From Pomacea canaliculata (lineage: Eukaryota; Mollusca; Gastropoda; Architaenioglossa; Ampullariidae), in contig NC_037597.1 in the NCBI RefSeq assembly GCF_003073045.1, forward strand, positions 8,901,217-8,965,216: a stretch of DNA of 64,000 bases, in the 5' to 3' direction. This document shows positions 24,713 to 47,500 of the stretch, piece by piece. The notes under the pieces were generated by a model. It made no database searches. It had not been told where the DNA came from and saw only the letters and a list, made by a program, of their open reading frames with translations. A program made the position numbers and the translations under genes. Numbering within the stretch: position 1 is the stretch's first letter; each line of letters starts with the position of its first letter.

Positions 24713-26106
24713 ATGCATTCTCTAATAGATTTTACAGCTGTTCTACTTTTGCTGTTCGAGCAGATTGCTTCTGTAATCTATGCGGATTACATAGTACAGC
24801 TGGACATTACTCAAATATTACATGGAACCAGCATTACCGACCTCGCTGTCAACTCCTGCCTGGAACTCAGGCATCGGTCTTACACGACTGAGGCTGGAGA
24901 CAGTGGAGAATCCCTTGTCTGTGTTAATGGAACACTACTTCAAGGTTAGTGTTCATATCTCAGTCTATGGAGTCGTATGGCTATATGTCGTGTATATAAT
25001 ATTATTATCGAGGCACCAAAAAGTAGGGTGTTGCATTCCAGTATCGGAGTAATATGGTGTGTGCGAGAGAAATGGAGGATGGGTGAATTCTGTTTGCCTA
25101 TTTATTTAAGTACGATTCTATCTTACAATTTTGTTAAGGAACGACTTTTTCTGCCTTTTCAAGATAATTTTTATACCTCGTCCAAACACCCACTTGCGTG
25201 CCTTTTAGATAATTTTGTAACAGAATCGGCTGGTTCGTCTGTCCTTCTGTTCATCTGTCCGTCTGTCTGTCTGCCCATCCCAGCGGAAAGCGGAAGTAGG
25301 AAAGACTATTGAGATGTTCGCGCTGCCAGGTACATGTTTTAAGGGTGTTTCTGTTCACTTGCCAAGCTGCGAAGTTGGCAGGTGCGACTCTAACGCCTGA
25401 CCAAACACAGCCCGCGACGCATGGCTCCAGGGTTCGCCGCTCGTGGCCCAAGAAAGACCCTCGTGGGAAAGGTCGAATGGCGAGGATATGTGACCAGCAT
25501 ACTGGACCTTGGGACTAGGATACAGTGTCATGGAGAAAGAACGATAGGGCGGTGTGTGTGTGTCACAGGTCAGGTAGCTTCGGTATCTTTCTGGATCCCA
25601 CTCTCCCCAGTTTTTCAACTACGACGGTTGTGCACATTGAAGTGCTAACCATGAATTCTTGAACTACTTTCAGTTTGCAGTTGTATTCCTTTGAATATCA
25701 ACAATTCTTTCCAGTTCAATGTTTCAGTTTTTTTCAGGTTAAACTGAACTCTCTCCCTTTCCATATTCACCACCTACCTACTATTGAATTCTTTAAATGT
25801 GCATTGAAAACGCACTTCTTCCTGAAGTATTACTCCACCAGTCCCCACAATGCCAGTCCTTTTCCTCCTTATTACTTCCCTACTCGTCTTCCTTTTGCAA
25901 AATTACGATACTCTCAGTCCTTGTTACTTGGTTTCTCTTTGCGTTTTCTGTATTTGTGCTTATTCATCATCGGTAGTGTTGTTTATCCTTCCGTAGATCA
26001 TATGTTGCTTGTTCTTCTGTCCCTCGTATGTTGTCCATGTCTCGTTCTTGTTCTTAAGCGCTAAGAGCATGCTTCTTGTGTGAGTATGCACTATACATAT
26101 CTTGCA

Positions 26107-26197
<91 letters not shown>

Positions 26198-29100
26198 TTA
26201 TTATTATTAAAATTCTTCATACAGTAATGCCGAAACTGTTAGTTGTCTGTTTCTACAAATTCAGTGATTGGAAAAGTAGAAGCTTCTTACCTTAGCTCCT
26301 GCTGCACCCTGAAATTTTTCGAGAGCAGGGTAAAAGGTTCGAGCCAAAAGGTCAAACAAAATTTTTTTCTGAAAAGAGTAAAAAGAAGTTAGCTCGTTGC
26401 AAGCAGCTTGAATCTAATACTTGCTCACAGAACATCAATTTTTCCTGATTTCAGAAACAAATCACTCAGAGACCTCGAGCTTACACAGTCGAAATGTTGT
26501 GTTTGCCTTTCTGTTTCCACACCGTGTACCAGTGAGTTATAATTTTTGTTGTTTTTGGGGGGTTTGTGGGTTTTATCTTTTAACTACACCGCATATTGCT
26601 TTCTGATAAACTTCATAATGAATCCTATTACAATGACTCATTAACAACATATAAGCATTTAAAAGTATTTATGTGGCGCAAGGAGAGCTAAGTAAAAGAC
26701 AAATGTGACAGGTGAAGCAACTACATTTGGATGTAAACGTCTGGAAGGGGGACGAACTAGCCAAGGCCTTTCCTTTATCAGTGCCCGTGCATTCATCACT
26801 GGATGGAAACGTAAAAGGAAACAGAGACAGGTATCAGCGTCTTTCCCTGCAACTGCCAGTCCCAGGTGATGGCAACAACGGCTCTGCTGTCGGTGTGAAG
26901 GTTGGTGGAGGCTAGGTTTGTTCTCACCTGAGAATTCATAGGAGAAAGAGGTCTTTATAGCTATTTGTGTAATTTTGTGTAAGTTGTGTGTATGTGTATG
27001 AGCGCGCGCGTGAAAAAAAAGAGATAGGAAAGTAATTTTTTTGCAATCAGGATTTGCGTCAGTAATAGAAATCTGTGTTTCAGAATAAGTTTTGACGATG
27101 CATTAATTCTCATTGTGCAAGGTTCGTTGCTACTTTATGATAAATACTGTTTGTCACGTTGTTGTACGTGCTGTTTATTACGCGTGTTAGTTTGTGTTAC
27201 GTGCACGAGCTCATGGCGTGTGTAGTTGAGGCGCATGCGCAGTGTCACAGACAACACATGCACGTGTCATGTCTGTAGGTGTTGTGCCAGACGGACTTCT
27301 TCGGATCTCGGTGTGAAACTCGCTGCACTGACACAGACAGGTACGCATGCGACTGGACAGGCCGCCGGCTGTGTCACAAGGGCTGGTTGGGGGACAGGTG
27401 TGACATACCATCAGGTACTTTGCTTTTTGTCTCTTCTCTCTGTCTCTCACTCTCTCTCACACACACACGGAGAAGTGATTGCTTGACTAGAAGTTGAGGA
27501 TTTGAATGTGACACCCTACGATCATTACTATATTTTTTTTTATTTATACAATACTTTTGACTCAGTTGACCACATTTTTGTTCTTGCGTTTTTTTTATTC
27601 TGCATGATGATTTCAAACTTTTGCATTCATTGCTAACGTCCACTATTATCATCAAACATCAAATATCCACCATTACACTCATTTTCTGACATCGTCAATC
27701 TATTTCTGAACCCTATACCTATCTTTGAGCTTTCAGCTTGTGATGTCGTTTGCTGTCATTTAACATCATCACTGAAGGTCTCAATAATCCAGACGCAATG
27801 TTGCCTCTCTTGGCACACGTGCCCCGGCTCAGACACAAATAATTATGACATTTTCTGTGGAAAACCCATGTGGTTGCAGGCAAAGTTGCTAACGACACCC
27901 TACAACCAGGAAGGCTTGAAAGGATTGACAGGGAGAAGCGACAGACTAACACAAGCGCCATTTTTGTCAGTAAGTCTTCGCACATACACTCAAAGTCTTG
28001 TCTTTCTTTAACAAGTCATGATTGGGCGAAGACGCTTACTACAGTTGTCCTTCTGTCCATCAGCATGTTTGAACAGCTACGGAATCCGTTTAACAAAAGC
28101 TTTTCATTTACATGGAGGAGCTGTAATAACTCATATCAACAGCTCCATTTTTCATTGGCTGTCCAACATACCAGAGATCATAAAACGGTGTCCTGCTTTT
28201 TTTTTCTTCCTTGCTAAGTTCGTGCAATAATTTGTTTACATTTTTTCAAGCAAGCAAATAAAATGGTATGACGTAAAGGTATCCTAGGACCAAAGAAACA
28301 ATTTAACGAATTTCAATGATTCTAACCAGGAGTGACCTGTTAAGACAGCACAGAGACCTGACGACTTTTAAATTCTGTTATTGTTTGTATAAGATAAACA
28401 ACATTATGCTATTTCTCATGTCTTAGAAAAGGTACTCAGAGCTGTTATGCAGGACTAGTTGTATTACCATAATCTGGCCTTAGTTGCTGGCTCGGCGGAA
28501 AACACCAATTCTTCCACCCTCCCCCACCCCACTCACTCTTGTTGTAATTAGAGATATCAGTTTACTCAAGTGCATGCTCTCACAGATCCATGCAACGATG
28601 CACCTTGTAAAAATGGCGGGACGTGCTTCCTACTAACAGTAGAACCACCCACATTCCAGTGCAGCTGCAACCCCGGGTATACTGGGGACTTCTGCGAAAA
28701 AGGTATGTTGGTCTTGACACTTTGTTGTTACTTGACAACACATAATCTGTGACTTTATGTATGTATAAAACTGATCGATGATACAAGATGCCTATAATTA
28801 TGATGCTCAAGAAAAGCACAGGGTCGCAGTCTTCTGAGACATAATTATTGTTGTGGGCAGGCATTGACGAGTGTGCAAGCGGGCCATGTCGCAACGGTCG
28901 TTGCATTGACAACATCGGCTTCTACCGTTGTGCTTGTGACTTCGGCTTCACTGGCCTCTACTGCAGCATCGGTATGATGATGATGTAGACAACACACACT
29001 CACTAAGCAAGTCGCTAACTCGCTAAACGAATACGTCACTGACAAAAACTAAGCACAGAGTGTATGGGGCTATACACAGTATACATAGATAATCATTTCA

Positions 29101-32100
29101 AGCGTTTAAACTGTCTAATGAGGTTATAAGATGGAGAAAAGATGCGTCGCTCTTGCGGAAGTTCATCTATGAGACTATAGTTTTCCACTTGCAGATGTCG
29201 ACGAATGCGCGGTGAATCCCTGTGAGAACGGTGGCACGTGCAGTCAGGGTCCCCCGGGAACCTTCGAGTGCACCTGTCCCGTTGGCTTCGCCGGCCTGCA
29301 GTGCGAGACAGACATCAACGAGTGTTTGGCTCTCAGCCCCTGCCAGAACGAAGGGACCTGTCAACAAGGGCCACCCGGACAGTACATCTGTATTTGTCCA
29401 CCCGGCTTCACAGGTACGCCTCTACCCGGCGTCTCCGTAGCTGAGTGTATGTAAGGTCGTTGCCCGCTGTTACCATAGCGGGGTCTGTTCTACGATTCTG
29501 CCAGTAAACAGAAAGTTTACTTGGTCCTGTATATGGTAAACAATAAGATAACATGAAATAAACTATTACAAAATCTGTAATGATGATTAAACAATGATTC
29601 ACACAAAAACGATGCAAGTAATAAGCTTATTAAACAACTGCTTTTCTGTGTCGCTTATTAAACACAGACCTTTGGCATCTTCCGTCCCTTTCCACCCACC
29701 CCAACCAAGTTCTGACCATTAAAAAAAAAATTGAGTGCTTGTGTGACAAACAAAGCAATAAAGTTAGTATGAGTACTGTATGATCCACTTCCTGTTGTAC
29801 TGCTCGTGTACCTGCCCAGGTGTGAACTGCGAGACTGATGTCAACGAGTGCGCCAGTCGCCCATGCCAGAATGGCGGACTGTGTCAGGAGAACGGGCCGG
29901 CCAGCTTCACCTGCCAGTGCCCTCAGGGCTACGAGGGCAACGTGTGTCAGTTCGAGGTGCTGGCGTGCGCACCCATCAACCCCTGCGTCAGGGGCACGTG
30001 CCAAGAGCTGGGTCGCGGAGCCTACAGGTGCAACTGCAGACCCGGCTACACCGGCAAAAACTGCGACGTGGACATCGATGAGTGCCAGTCGCAGCCTTGT
30101 CTCAATGGAGGCTCTTGCTCCAACGGCCCCCCGGGCTCTTACATTTGTCAGTGCCCCGTTGGTGAGTGCGGCGGGGGGGCAGGGGTGACGTGGTGCACAA
30201 ACCGTTTTCACTGCTCAGTGTCAGAAAAAAAATGTTGCTTTAAGTTTCTTGCTGTGAGGTATAAAGATGAGGAGGATGGGGTGGAGGGCACTAATTTAGA
30301 GTTTGGGTGATAAGATAACCAGAATAGTAGAACATATGAAATGTTGGACACGTGTCTCAAGATCAAACTGCTAAATGTCGCAGACAATATACATATCAAG
30401 ACAAACTGTTAGATGACTGATATACCGGGTATCTTAAGACAAGATATAAAATTCTTTTTTTTTCTCTCTTAGATGAGCACAGACTGTCATATCTTCATTT
30501 CAGTTATTATCTCAAAAACATGAAAGGAAATTCTAAAGATATGTATAGGATGGATATATAAATATATACATGGGAATTATTAGTCCACATACCTAAATAC
30601 TTGTACACACACTCACGTACAGTAATACATACCAACTAATACACTTTCACCTAATTCTCTCTCAATTGCACTCTCACCTGACGTACTTCATTTCAGTCAC
30701 ATCAAACCTAGTTCGTTGTATTTATATATAAGTAAATAACGTGGGTGCAGGTTTCTCGGGCGGCAGATGCGACGTGGACATCGACGAGTGCGCCATCCTC
30801 ACCCCATGCGCCAACCGCGCGACGTGCGTGCAGGACGTACCCGGCAAGTACCGCTGCATCTGCGCCACGGGGTACACTGGCCCGCGCTGCCAGGAGGACA
30901 TCGACGAGTGTCTGTCCCAGCCCTGCGCCAACGGCGGCACCTGCACCCAGGGTCGGGTGGCGGGTACGTTCAGCTGCGCCTGCCGCGCGGGCTTCACCGG
31001 GCCCACCTGCGATGGGGCGTTGGACCTGTGTGCGAGGTCGCCGTGTCAGAACAAGGGTCAGTGCAACCAGCTGCTACCAGGCACCTACAGCTGCGTCTGT
31101 CCACCTGGCTTCAGAGGTATAGTTCTTCCTTGTGTGTGACGTCAAAAAAAAAAAACCACAAAAAACAACAACAACAACAAAAAACTGGACTAATAATCAT
31201 TGGGTACAGTCCTGGTCTATATGAACTACAGTCCATTGGAATACTAACCTTAAGTAAGAATAGCATCTTTTGTCACATTAATGTTGGAAACATTGAAAAC
31301 TAACGTTGAATAAATATGCTAACGATATTGTGAGAAAATGAACAACAACATTTCACGCTCAAAGTTGTGTTTGCTGTCCAGGGCGGAACTGCGAAGAAGA
31401 CATCAGTGAGTGTGCCTCCCAGCCGTGCAGAAACGGAGGCACGTGCAGTGAACCTGTCCCAGGCACCTTCTCCTGCGCATGTCTCAAGGGGTAACTCGAC
31501 AAACATCTCAGGCGCATCGCGGTCGTTGTCATCGATATCATCAATAACAGCCACTTAAAAGGATGACATTTACTGTGTCATCGGTCGTGTGTTATTTTTA
31601 GTCTTTCGTTAGAAAACACTCTTCATTGTTAGCCTTTATAACCCAGGATTTACTCCGTGACAAGCCAGGTGTTGATGCACTGGGTTTGTCGCATTGTTGT
31701 TTTTAGACTTTCTTCAGATGAGGCTTTTCATTTAAATCCAGTTTGTGTCGGTTGTATCAGTCTTAAGGGGATAAGTTCTAGTCTTTCCAAGTGTGACCAG
31801 TGTCACTGGTTGACTGTTGCAGTTTCACCGGCGCCCAGTGTGCCGAGGACATCAATGAATGCTTGAGTAACCCTTGTCGGAACGGCGGCACGTGCTCACA
31901 GGGACCTCCCGGGAATTACACCTGCGCATGCGCAAACGGTTTCGCAGGCAGCACGTGCGAGCAGGACATAGATGAGTGCGCTAGCCGGCCGTGTCACAAC
32001 GCAGGCATCTGCATCCAACCGTACCCCGGAATCTTTCAGTGCAACTGTACCCAAGGTGAAAGTCTATGTCGTTTTTTAGCCTGTTGGTGTCCTTTTCTCA

Positions 32101-35100
32101 CCTGTCGCATACGGTTGAGGTTTTTATTTGTCTGTTTCCTCCACCCCTAAAGTTTTCCTGTTGATCCTCAAAAAGCTGCCCAGTCTAACATTTTTTTTTT
32201 AAATTCGGGTGGGGATGAAATACCCGGATGCAGGGTTCCGTGGCCGAGTGTGCGAGACGGTGGTTGACCCTTGCCTCTCTCAGCCTTGCCGTAACGGTGG
32301 CACGTGCAACACGCTGGACGGAGGTAGCTACAGTTGCACCTGTCCCCTGGGGACATCCGGCCTGCGCTGTGAGGAGGATATTAACGAGTGCGAGAGCCGG
32401 CCATGCAAGAACGGGGGCCAGTGTTCGCAGCCTGCCCTGGGGACCTTCCGCTGCACGTGCGAAGCTGGCTACACTGGGTCAACATGCGGTGTGGGTACGT
32501 ACGTAGGTAGACATACGATGAGCCCAAACTTTAATAATATAACTTTTAAACTTTAATAAAGGTCAAGAGGAGGGAGCGATTTTATGTTACTTGCTCTTAT
32601 CACCAGCAGTATCAACAACTAGAACTAGAAGATCCCATTGTGTATCTTTTGGTAGGCCGAAATGAAATCGCGCGCACATACACACGTTCACACCCACCCA
32701 CACATTCTCTCTCTCACACACATTCTCTCTCTCTCTCACACACACATTCTTTACCCAGATTTTTATGATTGCTATGATGGAGACATGTTAGCCGTGTGAG
32801 CAGTGGCACGCGCCACTCTGTACAAGTAATTTGTTCACTCTTTACAAGGGAGCTGTTGACGATGCAATAATAAATCAACTTCTGATGAGTTTAAAAGTAT
32901 TGTTCATACAGGCAGACATATAAAATGATATCCTTCGATATTTTTCTCTTGTAAAAACACAGTTATAGCTTCAGATATAGTGTGTACCTGATTTTTTTTT
33001 TTTTTTATCACTATACTTGAGATTTGCGTGCGCCAAGTGTTTTCATGATCTGGGTCGCAGATATCAACGAGTGTGCTGCACAACCGTGCGCCAACAACGG
33101 TACCTGTCGCGAGGGTCCTCCAGCTACATACTCTTGCACATGCGCACCGGGCTGGCAGGGCTTAAACTGCACAGAGGGTGAGTGGCTAGCAGGCGTCAAA
33201 CGTCAAACGTCGCTCATCACATAAACTAAACCCTGACGGCTACAGAGAGAAACTGAATGTCCCCCCCCACACACACACCTCACTGCCCCACCGAGTGCTA
33301 TACTTTACTGATGCCACTCTCTGCTTCCAGTTTAATTTAACATGGACTTGCACAAAGTCTACGTAACAGAAAATAAGGGTGAAAGTTGAGCTGTCTGCTT
33401 AAATGAAGGATGATAATGATAATGTTGACAATCATGGATACCATGCGACGATGCAAACAATAAATGGATAAAGGCACAATTTATTGTCATTCCAAAACTT
33501 CCGAGGAAAGCGAATGGAAATGAAGTCTGTCCCTTTACTTGTAGATGTGGACGAGTGCGCGTCGTCACCCTGTCAGAATGGCGGCACCTGTGAGCAGCCA
33601 GAGCCCGCAGTGTTCAGCTGTTCATGTCTGGAGGGCTTTCTGGGAGACAGATGTCAGCAAGGTAAGTCCTCTTCTTCCCTGCGAATTGTCCACACGATTT
33701 CGCCTGCAAGCTTGACTTCTTTTGTCGCTTTATCGAGTATTGTGCGTTCCATGGTTACACTGAAGTACATGTCTCTGACGGTCTTCCAGTGACAATAGAT
33801 GGTTGAGGTTCGACTCCAAATACCAAATAATTGAATAGTTTTACTCTGCAGTGTCAGCGAGCTGTTGCAAAAAATGTTAATGGATAAATAGGTACAGTCT
33901 GTAACTAAAGCCATGTTTTCATTGCAGAAAAACTTTGTCACAACAAATGCAAAAATGGTGGTACATGTCAAGTAAGTTATTCCAGTAATTAGTTCTATTA
34001 ACCTATATAATATCTTTACTATTTACTAATATTTATGGTATTATCAAAATGCCAATAAATGTGTGATAAGCACACAGAGAGGTTATTTGTCTGAACATAT
34101 ATTCAGTCAGTCGTCCCTTGACCGGCACCTGTCGTTGGGTGTGTGGGTGGAAACATGGATAGACTACTTTATGAAAAGATACTATGTTATGACAAATAAA
34201 AATTAAAAAACAAAAAACAACTAAAGGGTGAAAAAAGCATGAAAAAAAAGCTTGGACAAACTGTGCACTTGAGCCAACATTGTCCTGTTGTAGACAGAGG
34301 GATCGATGAAACTGCCATAAATTCTCATAGGCAATGGCTGTTGCTCAATTCCTGTGCCTTGCACACATGCTTTCTACATTCTAACATGCCAAGTAATATG
34401 GCATGCAGGAGCTGTCTGGTGTGGATTACATCTGCATGTGTCCTCTGGGCTTTACTGGGCGCAACTGTGAGGTCAACATTGACGAGTGCAGCAGCAACCC
34501 CTGTCGTCAGCTGGGAGTGTGTATTGATGGAGTCAACAGTTACACCTGTGCTTGCATGAAAGGTACACAACAAGATCTTTAAGTGTTGCCCCACTCCTCC
34601 ACCTTCATCTTTTTATACCATATTACATGATGATACTCAAACATTAAAATTTAGAAACTGTGAAGACTCATTTTCTGACATCAGGGATGATCATCTTTCA
34701 CTAGAAATGCTGATCAATGTACCTTTTCACAGTTTTACAGTAAAACAGTGGCAATAAAGATTGCAGTAGTGATTTTCTTATAACTAAGTTAAAACTGCCT
34801 TGGTTATAACTAAACGCACCAATCCAAAAAACTACCTTCAAAAATGTCACAAAAGATAACAGCTTAGAAATACATGTGATCTGCTGCTTACATGTGATAC
34901 ATTTGATAGCGTCTTTTCCCACAGAGCTCACAACACCCATACATCAAGTTTGTACACGGACACACACAATAAGCAGGAATCATTTATACCTTACAATTAT
35001 GTGCATACACTCTCATATATAGCATAGACATACACAAACATGTGTACCATCCAGAGGAGGAATATCAAAGGTGAGATCAGAACCCACAACACCTGACAGG

Positions 35101-36810
35101 CGCAAATGTGGGTATGCTCACCTGGGTTTTTTATTTTTGAAATGTTGTAATATTTAGCAAGTATTCACATGGCATCAAAGTCTCTTGTCATCTGCAGGTA
35201 CTTCAGGATCTTTTTGTGAAGTGAACGTGGACAACTGTAATCCTAACCCTTGCATTGGTAATGTTCGCTGTGTTGACTGGACGGACGACTTCTACTGCAT
35301 GTGTCCTAATGGTACTGCTGGAAAAATCTGCAGTAAGTGTAGTTGTTTTCTTAACGCACTTAAAAAGTAAGTGTGCAAGTACATCACATGTATCTGTTAC
35401 ATATATTACCACACGAAACTTTTGAAAGGACATTATCGGATACTCTCTGATCACCATTAAAGTATAAAAAGACTAGCAAAAGTACTAATACCAAACATTT
35501 TATCGACAGTTAAACAGCAATGGAATGTATTTTTGCACATCTGTGTTTTAATGCAAATGGATGAAAAAGAAATTGGTTAAAAAGAGATAAAGTGTTTCTG
35601 AAAAAAACTGCCTATGGAAATGTTACAGATGTGTCATCACCAGATACATTGTACATATCCTGCACCAACAACCCCTGTTTGAATGGTGGTGCATGTTGGC
35701 GAAACAGAGATGGAACTACTCGTTGTGACTGTGCAAAGGGTGAGGAAGAACAAATTTTGTATTCATGCAGCAGTCAACTTGAATACCTTTGGCTATACTT
35801 CCTGTAATTCTGAGGATTATGGGGAAACCTGTAAATACAAAACTGTAGAACACAAATATGTACCTTTCCAAAACCACTGTTACTGATTTAAAGTAGGTTA
35901 TTCTGTGGTACCTATTTGTATGTACTTAAAATATATTCAGCTGTAGCGTTAATTTAAAGGCTGTGCAGACAGAAAGAAGGATAAGTCTAAAAAAGACAAA
36001 ATGAGAGGAACACTCTATGTATCTGTAATATGAACATTCAAAGATCTCTACACCTGTGTTTTTTTATTTTATAAAGTATTGCTGACATGTGCAGGATTCA
36101 CAGGCACACAGTGTGAGAGGAACATAGATGACTGCAAGCCAGGGTTGTGCAAGGCTGGTGCACGATGCACTGACTGGATCGATGACTTCTATTGTCATTG
36201 TCCTCCAAAAACATATGGCAAAACTTGTGGTGGGTGTCTGTCTCTATAGTCTAGCTAAAAGTGCACAGCTTTTTAAATCCTTTGCATTTATTTTCATTAC
36301 CAAATAATTGGAAGTAATCAAGATTATGTTTATACTTATGAAAAAGGAAAACAAGAAAAATATTTAGCAGCCTACAAAAAAAAAAAGTGGAAGCTTGCAG
36401 ACAAATTCTGTTATGCCTTTGTGACTTGAAATAAACTATAAACAATCACAATTTTTAAAGAGAAAATAGAAGATTGAATTTTACTCTTTTTTGAATCTTT
36501 CAGTGTTAATGTTTGCTTAGGAAACTGATGGATATTTTATGTTGCAGGGGACAATACAACAGTAACCACATTTACTACACAGGAACCTCAGGTGGCTATA
36601 CTACCTGGTGGATATGGCATTGATGCCACATTCTTAGCTGTCCTCTTAGGAATCCTTATTGGCCTTGGCATCATCATACTCATTGCATCTGCAGTGAGAT
36701 TTTGGTTTCGACGTGGGCAGCCTCGTGATTTCTGTTTTGCCCTAAGAGGCCACTTCTACCGTCCATTTTATGACTGGAATGAAACTACTTTCACTTCTGA
36801 GCGCTACTGA
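24713..36810 (+). CDS. Notch DSL-family ligand with about 22 EGF repeats
   Basis: Twenty exons: 24713-24944, 26455-26531, 26712-26900, 27279-27414, 28586-28702, 28861-28971, 29195-29413, 29820-30161, 30751-31116, 31382-31490, 31823-32055, 32234-32494, 33061-33177, 33545-33661, 33928-33971, 34409-34562, 35198-35332, 35629-35739, 36095-36229 and 36548-36810. All join in frame to about 1155 residues. Order: signal peptide, MNNL region (exons 1-3), DSL domain (exon 4: [14 protein letters not shown]... HKGWLGDRC), about 22 EGF repeats, many calcium-binding (DIDEC, DVNEC), a transmembrane helix ([20 protein letters not shown]) and a tail of about 33 residues ending SERY. The late repeats contain DDFYC as in Jagged/Serrate, but there is no von Willebrand C region. 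It should be a surface ligand or modulator of Notch. The DSL loop is short and the tail lacks lysine. Orthology to Delta or Serrate is unclear. Confidence 0.87.
26111..26208. repeat. Compound (ATT)n(AGT)n(ATT)n microsatellite
   Basis: About 100 bases of triplets in the first-half introns of the DSL-ligand gene: ATT units, then a long AGT run, then four ATT units. The long open frames across it are artefacts. Confidence 0.95.
32684..32752. repeat. CA/CT-rich microsatellite
   Basis: Interleaved CACACA and CTCTCT runs with repeated CACATTCTCTCTCT blocks, in an intron of the DSL-ligand gene. Confidence 0.85.
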
Positions 36811-44500: not shown

Positions 44501-47500
44501 GTGTGAGTGTAATTCCTATTCTTCTTTGTTACCAGATAAAATAATCTTAGCAGACATTGTCTCCCTCCTCAATTCAAACAATAGCTCAGAGAAAAGGAAA
44601 AAAAATTGTTGTCTTTGAGTCTTCTTTTCTTGCAACATTAATGATGGCTGAGGAGGGTCCATTGGGTTGGAAAATGGGAAAAGTCATGGAAATCTGAAAA
44701 ATGATTTCCAGTGACTGGAAAAGTCAGCGTAGTCGAAATTCTTTGAAATACAGAGTGAAAATAGGAAGTTTGAAATCTGTGTTAGAGTTATGGCTTGTAA
44801 TTCTGGTGTTCAGAAGAGATCACAATATACTCTTAAGTTAGATTAAGAATTGTCCTGCTGAAAGAAATCAGAGCACTTGGTCATTCAGCCAGTGTTTGGA
44901 ATTTAACATCAGCACCTAATGAGATATACTTTGATAGACAAACATTGCATTCTGTTTTTAGGAACTAGGTTGGCTAGACTCAGAGACAAAGGCCTATAGA
45001 GTTCTTGAGACAGGATTCAGGTACAATAAGTGTCTTGCTCTTACCAAAACTGGAGATGCATATTGCATTGGCTCAAGTGAAGATCTATTTCCATGCCTTC
45101 TCAGATATGACATCAATTCAGAAAAGGTAAGACTCTAAGAAGACTTCATATAGATTCATGTGAATTTTTTAATTTTGCTTTTGCCATCTTTCTATTCTTA
45201 TTATTATTGCAAAAATACAATAGAGCAAAAAAAAGAGTTGCCTCATTTTAGTAGTTTTTGCATTTTAATACATATAAACAAAATATATTTTTCCATTCTT
45301 GGTGCTAGCTATCTGCTTGTCTTATTTCTAAGCTATGCCTTATTTCTAAGGTTATATAACAACAGAAATTTCCCTTTTAGTACTTTTGAATCTTCAGTCA
45401 ACCCAGATCTACACCACAACCCCTCAGTTTGTTGACACTCTGCCCAGCTGAATGCGAATACTGAGGTTTCACAGTGTGTGTTTATTGGGGTGAACTAGGG
45501 TACGAACAGCAGGAGTATGGGCTTCCAGCACAGTGCAGAGAACGGCTGTAAGCCTGTCAGCAGAGGTTGAGGGGCAGAGGGATAGTTTGGTTTCCAGGTC
45601 ATCACAAAACTTTGCACTTAACTCTGGTGTTGGATTAGTCTTTTTGTGTCCTCTCTTTTTGGTCTCAGTCAAATTTTACTCCAACGTAACTATCCACAGT
45701 CCACATATATAATCCACAGTTCAGGTGCAGTTCAGAATTCATTTACAATTCCTTTTTTATGAGATTGATACAACAACGGTAAGTCCAGTCTAGTGCTGGT
45801 ATAAGCTCCCCATCAAATATGCAGGCCCTCAGTCCAGCACACAATAGCTTTTTACATCTCCTCAAGACAGACTTCCACTCACTAGTTTGCAAAGTCGTAA
45901 AGTGGTAGGTTTCTCTTATGCAGAGGCCAAGTTGCCTCTTTCCGCATTTCCTCGGAAAGTGGTAACTTTTCCTACTTGGAGGCCGAGTTGCCTCTTCCTG
46001 TGTTTTAGTGTGCCTGGTACCCCTTTCATGTTGGATTAATTCTTTGGAAAATAGTTTAAACAATTTAAACTAAAAGTATAAAATATGTTTTCTACATTGT
46101 GGGAAGGTAGCATTTATAAAAATGTGTTTTATATCTTGTGTTTGCATTATGTGTTACACCATAAAGGAGGTATATTGACATTTTGTCAAGATCATATTTG
46201 TACATAATTTTGATCATTTCTCTTAAAATATCTCTTTTGACAAAGAACAAGACGAAATACAACATTAAAGGCTTGTGGTTTTTATAGGTTCATATTGTCA
46301 AAGAGTCGCAATCAGTGCCAGAAGCACAAGGCTATGTGAGCATGCCTGAGTTTGTCAGCTGGCCTACAGGAGATAAAGAAACGTCACATGGCATTTTCTA
46401 TCCACCTTACAACAAAGATTTCAAGGCTCCAGAAGGTACAAAGCCACCTTTACTTGTCCGTGCTCATGGTGGACCCACATCACATTTTTTTGCCAACTTG
46501 GACTTAAAGCTTCAGTACTTCACAAGTCGTGGCTTTGCGGTGATTCTGGTGAATTATCGTGGCAGCACTGGCTATGGAAGAAGTTATCGCCATCGCCTGC
46601 GTGAAATGTCAGTTTACAACATTGTCTTGTATGGTATAGTATGATGTGGAAGCACAAGGAAGAATCTCCTTAATGTCGACTTCTTTTACAAAGAAAATAA
46701 TTTGTGTGCTTATATATTTTGCATACCAATAAAATATCTTGACAATAAAGTAATTAATAGGTTAAATTTTTGCAAGTTGGTAAGTGATAGTTGGTAAACA
46801 AACAAACAAAAAATAAGAAATTTTTATCCTGAAATGGAGATTTTATATCAAGACTTGCAAATATACTATGTTAAATTAAAGTTTAAGATCTACTTACAAC
46901 CTTTGGTTACAGCAAAAACAAACAACTTTTGCCATTCCTGATATTAATTTATAGGATTCCAAGTAAATATGTTTGATTTGCTGCAGCCTTTTCACTGTTG
47001 GAAGTCACTGCTAAGCATGTTGATCATGAAAATAAGAATTTATTTGCCAAGTTACATTGCAAAAAAGAACATGTCTTAGTGATTGCCACCAATTTCTTGA
47101 TAGTCACAGCTTGCATGTACAAAAAGAAATGAAGACAAAAATTCCTCTGTTGCATTGAAAATAAAAAGCACTCTTTCTGCAAGAACCCTTCGTTTTCAAA
47201 ATTAGAAAGGTGTTTTTTAGGTTATCACTTGATCTAAGCATTATGAAGACAGACTATATAATGAATTGCAGGTGGGGAGTATATGATGTTGAGGACTGCT
47301 GTACAGCTGTGGATTACCTGGTCCAAACTAACAGGGTTGACTCCCAAAAAATCTGCATTGATGGGGGATCTGCTGGGGGGTATACAACACTTGCATGCTT
47401 AACCTTTCGGAACACTTTTAATGCTGGTATATATATTTTTGGATGTTTTTCATGTATTTACTAATGTTGGCTAAATATTTGAGAACTGCATGCACTTTTT

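Follow-up and report, generated by a model that had tools for sequence, protein, structure and literature searches.

A Pomacea canaliculata gene encoding a DSL-like domain with a shortened third loop: a candidate non-activating surface protein of the DSL family

A gene of Pomacea canaliculata was found to encode a six-cysteine DSL-like domain whose third loop, TDTDRYA, has 7 residues, in a protein that also lacks the atypical EGF1-2 pair of Notch ligands and carries no lysine in its cytoplasmic tail. With slightly better than even confidence, we read its product as a diverged, non-activating type I surface protein of the DSL family, which could act as a decoy, a cis-partner or an adhesion molecule. 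The sequence, the gene model and the missing residues were observed, and from these we infer binding and function. The window, that is, the whole 64-kb stretch of DNA analysed, corresponds to C8:8901217-8965216, and the genome searched was the 440-Mb assembly in 24 contigs.

The preliminary description of this DNA had dealt with one exon, and around it a whole gene was built by hand, including a linker, the missing EGF1-2 and the lysine-free tail. The model comprises 21 exons on the forward strand (24713-36810) and encodes 1185 residues with no internal stop; all 20 introns are GT-AG and their phases are consistent throughout. The features are, in window coordinates:

24713..24944, + strand: exon 1, coding part; start codon, predicted signal peptide (residues 1-24) and start of the N-terminal region
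26455..26531, + strand: exon 2; N-terminal region; AG/GT sites, phase 1 in, 0 out
26712..26900, + strand: exon 3; remainder of the N-terminal region, ending in AVGVK; AG/GT sites, phase 0 in and out
27279..27414, + strand: exon 4; six-cysteine DSL-like domain with the third loop TDTDRYA; Pfam DSL 36.5 bits
27880..27969, + strand: exon 5; 30-residue linker with the furin-type site REKR; 90 nt, phase 1-1
28586..36229, + strand: exons 6-20; 22 EGF repeats in 15 exons with consistent phases
36548..36810, + strand: exon 21; transmembrane segment, 38-residue lysine-free tail and stop codon

Exon 1 is an open frame with the donor AAG/GTTAGT (slash at the junction) and phase 1 out; the signal peptide was called by eye and the 5' end of the gene is a predicted one. 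The signal peptide gives way to an N-terminal region of 144 residues, two of them cysteines, and then come the DSL-like cysteines (169-207), the EGF repeats (244-1098) and a transmembrane segment near 1127-1147. Among the 22 EGF repeats, counted by pattern, 14 carry the calcium-binding motif, 12 the O-fucose consensus and 11 the O-glucose consensus. The REKR of the linker (residues 229-232) is the sole RX[KR]R of the modelled protein, the composition of the linker predicting 0.005 such motifs there; since exon 5 has 90 nt and phase 1-1, its skipping keeps the frame. No other match to exon 3 or to the tail in exon 21 was found in the P. canaliculata genome at E<=10. On C8, Jagged (7.69-7.73 Mb), the modelled gene (8.93 Mb) and Delta (9.28-9.29 Mb) follow one another inside 1.6 Mb. 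Elsewhere, the window holds an open frame with Kelch repeats (3993-5507, +; Pfam Kelch_KLHDC2_KLHL20_DRC7, 162 bits) and an exon with a partial prolyl oligopeptidase match (46288-46641, +; Peptidase_S9, 30.9 bits).

The cysteine framework of exon 4 had been described as C-x8-C-x3-C-x7-C-x7-C-x8-C, and frame 1 of 27279-27414 (+) encodes exactly this spacing, between an AG just upstream and a GT just downstream (phase 0 in, 1 out) that support the exon edges proposed at the outset. When the six frames of the window were scanned with C-x8-C-x3-C-x6..13-C-x6..9-C-x8-C, the pattern occurred once, and in 60 dinucleotide shuffles it did not occur. The Pfam DSL model (PF01414) matched exon 4 alone with 36.5 bits (cut-off 24.2), the domain without flanks with 33.9 bits, also above the cut-off, and the domain inside a 281-residue piece of the protein with 30.5 bits. 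A PDB search placed Jagged-1 (20.9 bits, E 0.0033) first, closely followed by Drosophila Delta (20.7 bits), with Tie2 (14.7 bits) as the top non-ligand. The cysteines are presumably paired 1-2, 3-4 and 5-6; an AlphaFold2 prediction of the exon alone from the single sequence was poor (pLDDT 62.7, pTM 0.29). An ordinary six-cysteine EGF was rejected, the C4-x1-C5 step being missing, and both the C2 and C4 cysteines of the eight-cysteine laminin/SREC-type EGF are missing as well.

The expectation that a DSL third spacing is usually about 11 agreed with the alignments, in which it is 11 in six solved ligands (Jagged-1, Jagged-2, Serrate, DLL1, Delta and DLL4); in the eight other DSL exons found in the genome it has 8 to 12 residues. 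The loop lies wholly inside one open exon, and therefore no shift of an exon edge would restore the four or so residues; a missed exon restoring the loop was rejected on the same ground. A second DSL exon that might have escaped the preliminary description was sought in the 64-kb window by the Pfam DSL genome search and the six-frame pattern scan, and none was found.

In Jagged-1, the available text of PMC3415683 places F199, R201, R203, D205 and F207 on the Notch-binding face, and F207A is reported to drop Jagged-1 binding to background (PMC3888931, available part). In a phmmer alignment to Jagged-1, in which the residue numbering was assigned from matching letters, F199 is replaced by R and R201 and R203 by T, and D205 and F207 fall in a gap. 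As judged from this alignment, all five reported contact residues appear to be replaced or missing, a wider loss than the one first described; the snail Delta (L001) retains R, R, D and F among them. According to the part of PMC2725086 available, MNNL-DSL binds weakly and full binding is restored by EGF1-2. After the DSL-like domain of the window comes a linker of about 30 residues (30/31) and then an ordinary EGF, on which the two Pfam models of the atypical ligand EGFs gave 18.9 and 18.2 bits, below the cut-off of 27; EGF1-2-like exons, judged by eye, are carried by the snail Jagged and by L003. The tail holds no lysine in 38 residues vs 10 in 122 in the snail Jagged, and at the Jagged density the chance of a 38-residue tail without lysine is about 4% (hand calculation). 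A Delta without tail lysines is described, in the text available from PMC5675594, as having stronger cis-inhibition and as retaining weak signalling.

In place and length, the N-terminal region matches MNNL, and an MNNL/C2 domain there would be no more than an inference; a phase-0 intron follows exon 2, at the position at which the snail Jagged and Delta carry theirs, after FAWT and SWP. The Pfam MNNL model gave no match on this region, and the genome-wide MNNL search at E<=10 returned 12 places, none in the window gene. In local hhalign comparison with MNNL, the region scored 10.1 (shuffle mean 12.1), with 162 of 200 shuffles as good and the reversed sequence at 17.0, and in global mode 4.9 vs 3.4 for shuffles, with 44 of 200 as good. 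A global profile alignment to MNNL was marginal, with z 1.5 and 8 of 150 shuffles doing equally well, and in it an EGF piece taken from the same protein was not far off (-83.8 vs -81.1). MNNL is thus not claimed, because hhalign did not rise above shuffles and the profile alignment was marginal.

The lost loop, the lack of EGF1-2 and the lysine-free tail together indicate that the protein is most likely not a trans-activating Notch ligand. The DSL would keep its six cysteines and lose the loop that grips Notch, the atypical EGF1-2 would be missing, and the tail, presumably not ubiquitylated, would offer no lysine for ubiquitin-driven pulling. The protein could then serve as a decoy or cis-partner of Notch or of Notch ligands through its O-fucosylatable EGF stalk, or, within the same reading, as a Notch-independent adhesion protein; cleavage at REKR, if used, would free the N-terminal head from the stalk. 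Counting against the non-activating reading, which we favour by a little on balance, are the insecure DSL ancestry, the lack of an MNNL match, the chance, computed above, of a tail free of lysines, and sponge Deltas without contact residues that are discussed as Notch ligands.

These sponge Deltas, stated in the available text of PMC3482393 to be without the conserved binding residues, also bear on the foremost alternative, which is nonetheless unlikely, namely a working Notch ligand that would make contact by another surface, through its N-terminal region, through changed residues of the DSL or with a receptor that co-evolved. It would accord with a DSL-type domain preceded by a signal peptide and by a region of MNNL-like length, with the phase-0 intron in common with Jagged and Delta, and with the notch-type LNR exons that exist in the P. 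canaliculata genome. However, every one of the five contact residues is changed or missing, no ligand-type EGF1-2 was seen after the domain, and the tail has no lysine.

The ancestry of the domain is the subject of another alternative, a rather unlikely one, by which it would descend from a laminin/SREC-type EGF through loss of the C2-C4 disulfide, giving a DSL-like consecutive pairing. In laminin/SREC-type EGFs, C2 and C4 pair with each other, and their spacing, C-x8-C-x3-C-x1-C-x5-C-x5-C-x1-C-x8-C, becomes the 8-3-7-7-8 of the window domain when these two cysteines are removed; 7 residues separate C1 from C3 in 12 of 22 such EGFs. Two snail laminin/SREC-type EGFs taken end to end matched the DSL-EGF1 region of DLL4 and DLL1 in a PDB search, the alignment being gapped at the third DSL loop. 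FFG and GW, which had been taken as marks of a DSL, are also found in EGFs of laminin/SREC type elsewhere in this genome (e.g. L057 and L053).

Two controls were applied to this question, with L004 and L051, in both of which an intron splits the DSL, and L056 omitted from the EGF/DSL comparison and 8 of 20 stretches omitted from the EGF set, where the pattern found no unit. The first was a leave-one-out profile over 24 columns, loop and cysteine positions being excluded. In a set of 12 DSLs and 10 EGFs, Tie2 unit b included, every DSL was positive (9.3 to 43.3), nine of the 10 EGFs were negative and one scored +4.3, and the window domain scored -7.2. With 22 EGFs, this unit being omitted, the ranges were -0.3 to 39.9 for DSLs and -2.2 to -46.6 for EGFs; at -3.8, the window domain fell under all 12 DSLs and within the range of the 22 EGFs. 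Over the 24 columns it has 10 residues in common with L007, and likewise 10 with each of five EGFs. The profile tells against a confident DSL call, and the residues outside the loop appear to lie between the families.

In the second control, both C2 and C4 of laminin/SREC-type EGFs were exchanged and the products were scored with Pfam DSL. With serine, 4 of 9 passed the cut-off, and with the window's own D and R, 12 of 18 did (18 of 22 units; L077, two SREC units and u112427 omitted), so that the Pfam DSL cut-off alone does not separate DSL from EGF. The 18 averaged 25.2 bits (SD 3.1) with a maximum of 30.7, and on the same cut the window domain reached 33.9, above every one of them, and L007 37.6; with its flanks, the window domain also exceeded all 9 serine-stripped EGFs, and five unmodified EGFs scored 11.9-17.8 bits. 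This control favours a DSL identity. When the window domain was searched against its own genome, with 7 of 11 further matches retrieved, the top three non-self matches were DSLs (31.4, 28.3 and 27.0 bits) and EGF types reached at most 24.4. Further against an EGF origin, an arginine stands at the place of the lost cysteine, where DSLs mostly have K or R, and the domain is single and N-terminal, outside any EGF array. In favour of an EGF origin, Teneurin-EGF had a lower E-value than DSL in the 281-residue piece, although its match did not reach the cut-off of its own model. On this evidence, DSL descent of the domain is likely and EGF descent possible. The preliminary description's claim of a true DSL is likely but not secured: the Pfam DSL score of the domain stands above all the stripped EGFs, but its spacing equals that of an EGF minus one disulfide, and the residues outside the loop favour neither family clearly.

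The Pfam DSL search of the genome returned at least 8 exons, all above the cut-off, and the own-genome search added a ninth, L051 (27.2 bits on a partial domain). The third loop has 11 residues in L001, L004, L005, L006 and L051, 12 in L002 and L003, 8 in L007 and 7 in the window. With acceptors judged by sequence, the window and L007 appear to have in common a phase-0 intron that lies two codons upstream of the first cysteine, and L004-L006 a phase-2 intron eight codons upstream of it; L001-L003 are open across the latter place. Downstream of L007 (Pfam DSL 40.0 bits), and on its strand, come many EGFs and then a chitin-binding CBM_14 (32.9 bits), and therefore short-loop DSLs may sit in matrix-type proteins. 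This locus on contig C2 (~8372727-8383077, -; L007, L015 and L032), with its 8-residue-loop DSL exon, many EGFs and then CBM_14, possibly encodes a matrix protein with a DSL. On other contigs, an MNNL match at C9:1063665 (L022) lies near the divergent DSL exon at C9:1064698 (L051), missed by the Pfam genome search, and N-terminal halves of an MNNL lie at C13:16871667 (L020) and C13:2161210 (L021), whose pieces scored 35.9 and 28.8 bits; that search, with its at least 8 exons, gave no DSL match on C13. Several snail DSLs (L004-L007 and L051) contain C-[DN]-x-x-TG-x-[KR]-x-C, a stretch that closely resembles CDPxTGxCxC in laminin/SREC-type EGFs.

An artefact is very improbable, be it an assembly error of 12 bases within the loop, a mistaken gene model or a pseudogene in decay: the loop does contain a donor-like CAGGTACGC and exon 5 could be skipped or unreal, but the 1185 codons are free of stops, the introns have matching phases, and L007 is a second short-loop DSL in the genome.

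Like Delta and Jagged, the modelled protein has a signal peptide, an N-terminal region, a six-cysteine DSL-type domain, an EGF stalk and one transmembrane segment; unlike them, it has a third DSL loop of 7 residues (11-12 in the ligands) without the contact residues, 22 EGFs with neither a ligand-type EGF1-2 nor a VWC seen, no detected MNNL, and a tail free of lysine. DLL3, which neither binds Notch in trans nor activates it (PMC4391858, available text), resembles it in the proposed role of a DSL protein not activating Notch in trans, a likeness by anatomy only; DLL3 is a vertebrate protein with fewer EGFs, and orthology is not claimed. Precedents for such a protein are the sponge Deltas, reportedly also without the Notch-contact residues, and DLL3, which does not bind Notch in trans. 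Lophotrochozoan genomes are described as rich in DSL genes (138 screened; PMC8166818, in part), and Platynereis has the DSL-like genes Pdu-DSL-like1-3 (PMC5356439, in part); such proteins likewise combine a DSL with EGFs outside the canonical ligand plan. Laminin/SREC/Tie2-type EGFs have the same spacing once the C2-C4 pair is removed, and FG and GW motifs, but they have two more cysteines and usually stand in tandem arrays. Literature text searches of partial coverage listed no molluscan DSL described as having a short loop.

Since many EGFs deprived of one disulfide pass the Pfam DSL model, some of the DSL genes counted in animal genomes rich in EGFs may be look-alikes. A long shot is that the DSL itself would derive from a laminin/SREC-type EGF through loss of one disulfide and, later, insertion of about four residues contacting Notch, the window domain being a living form without the insertion and with a job other than Notch activation. 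The idea of DSL arising from EGFs is in print (PMC3415683 and PMC2725086, as far as their available text goes), and the term for its laminin-type version was not found in the literature search; if true, the window domain would show how a generic EGF became a Notch-gripping module. As the diverged, non-activating DSL-family protein that we favour, a natural DSL protein without the whole contact loop could separate the folding parts of the DSL module from its Notch-binding parts, and it would also test the use by molluscs of DSL proteins outside Notch activation.
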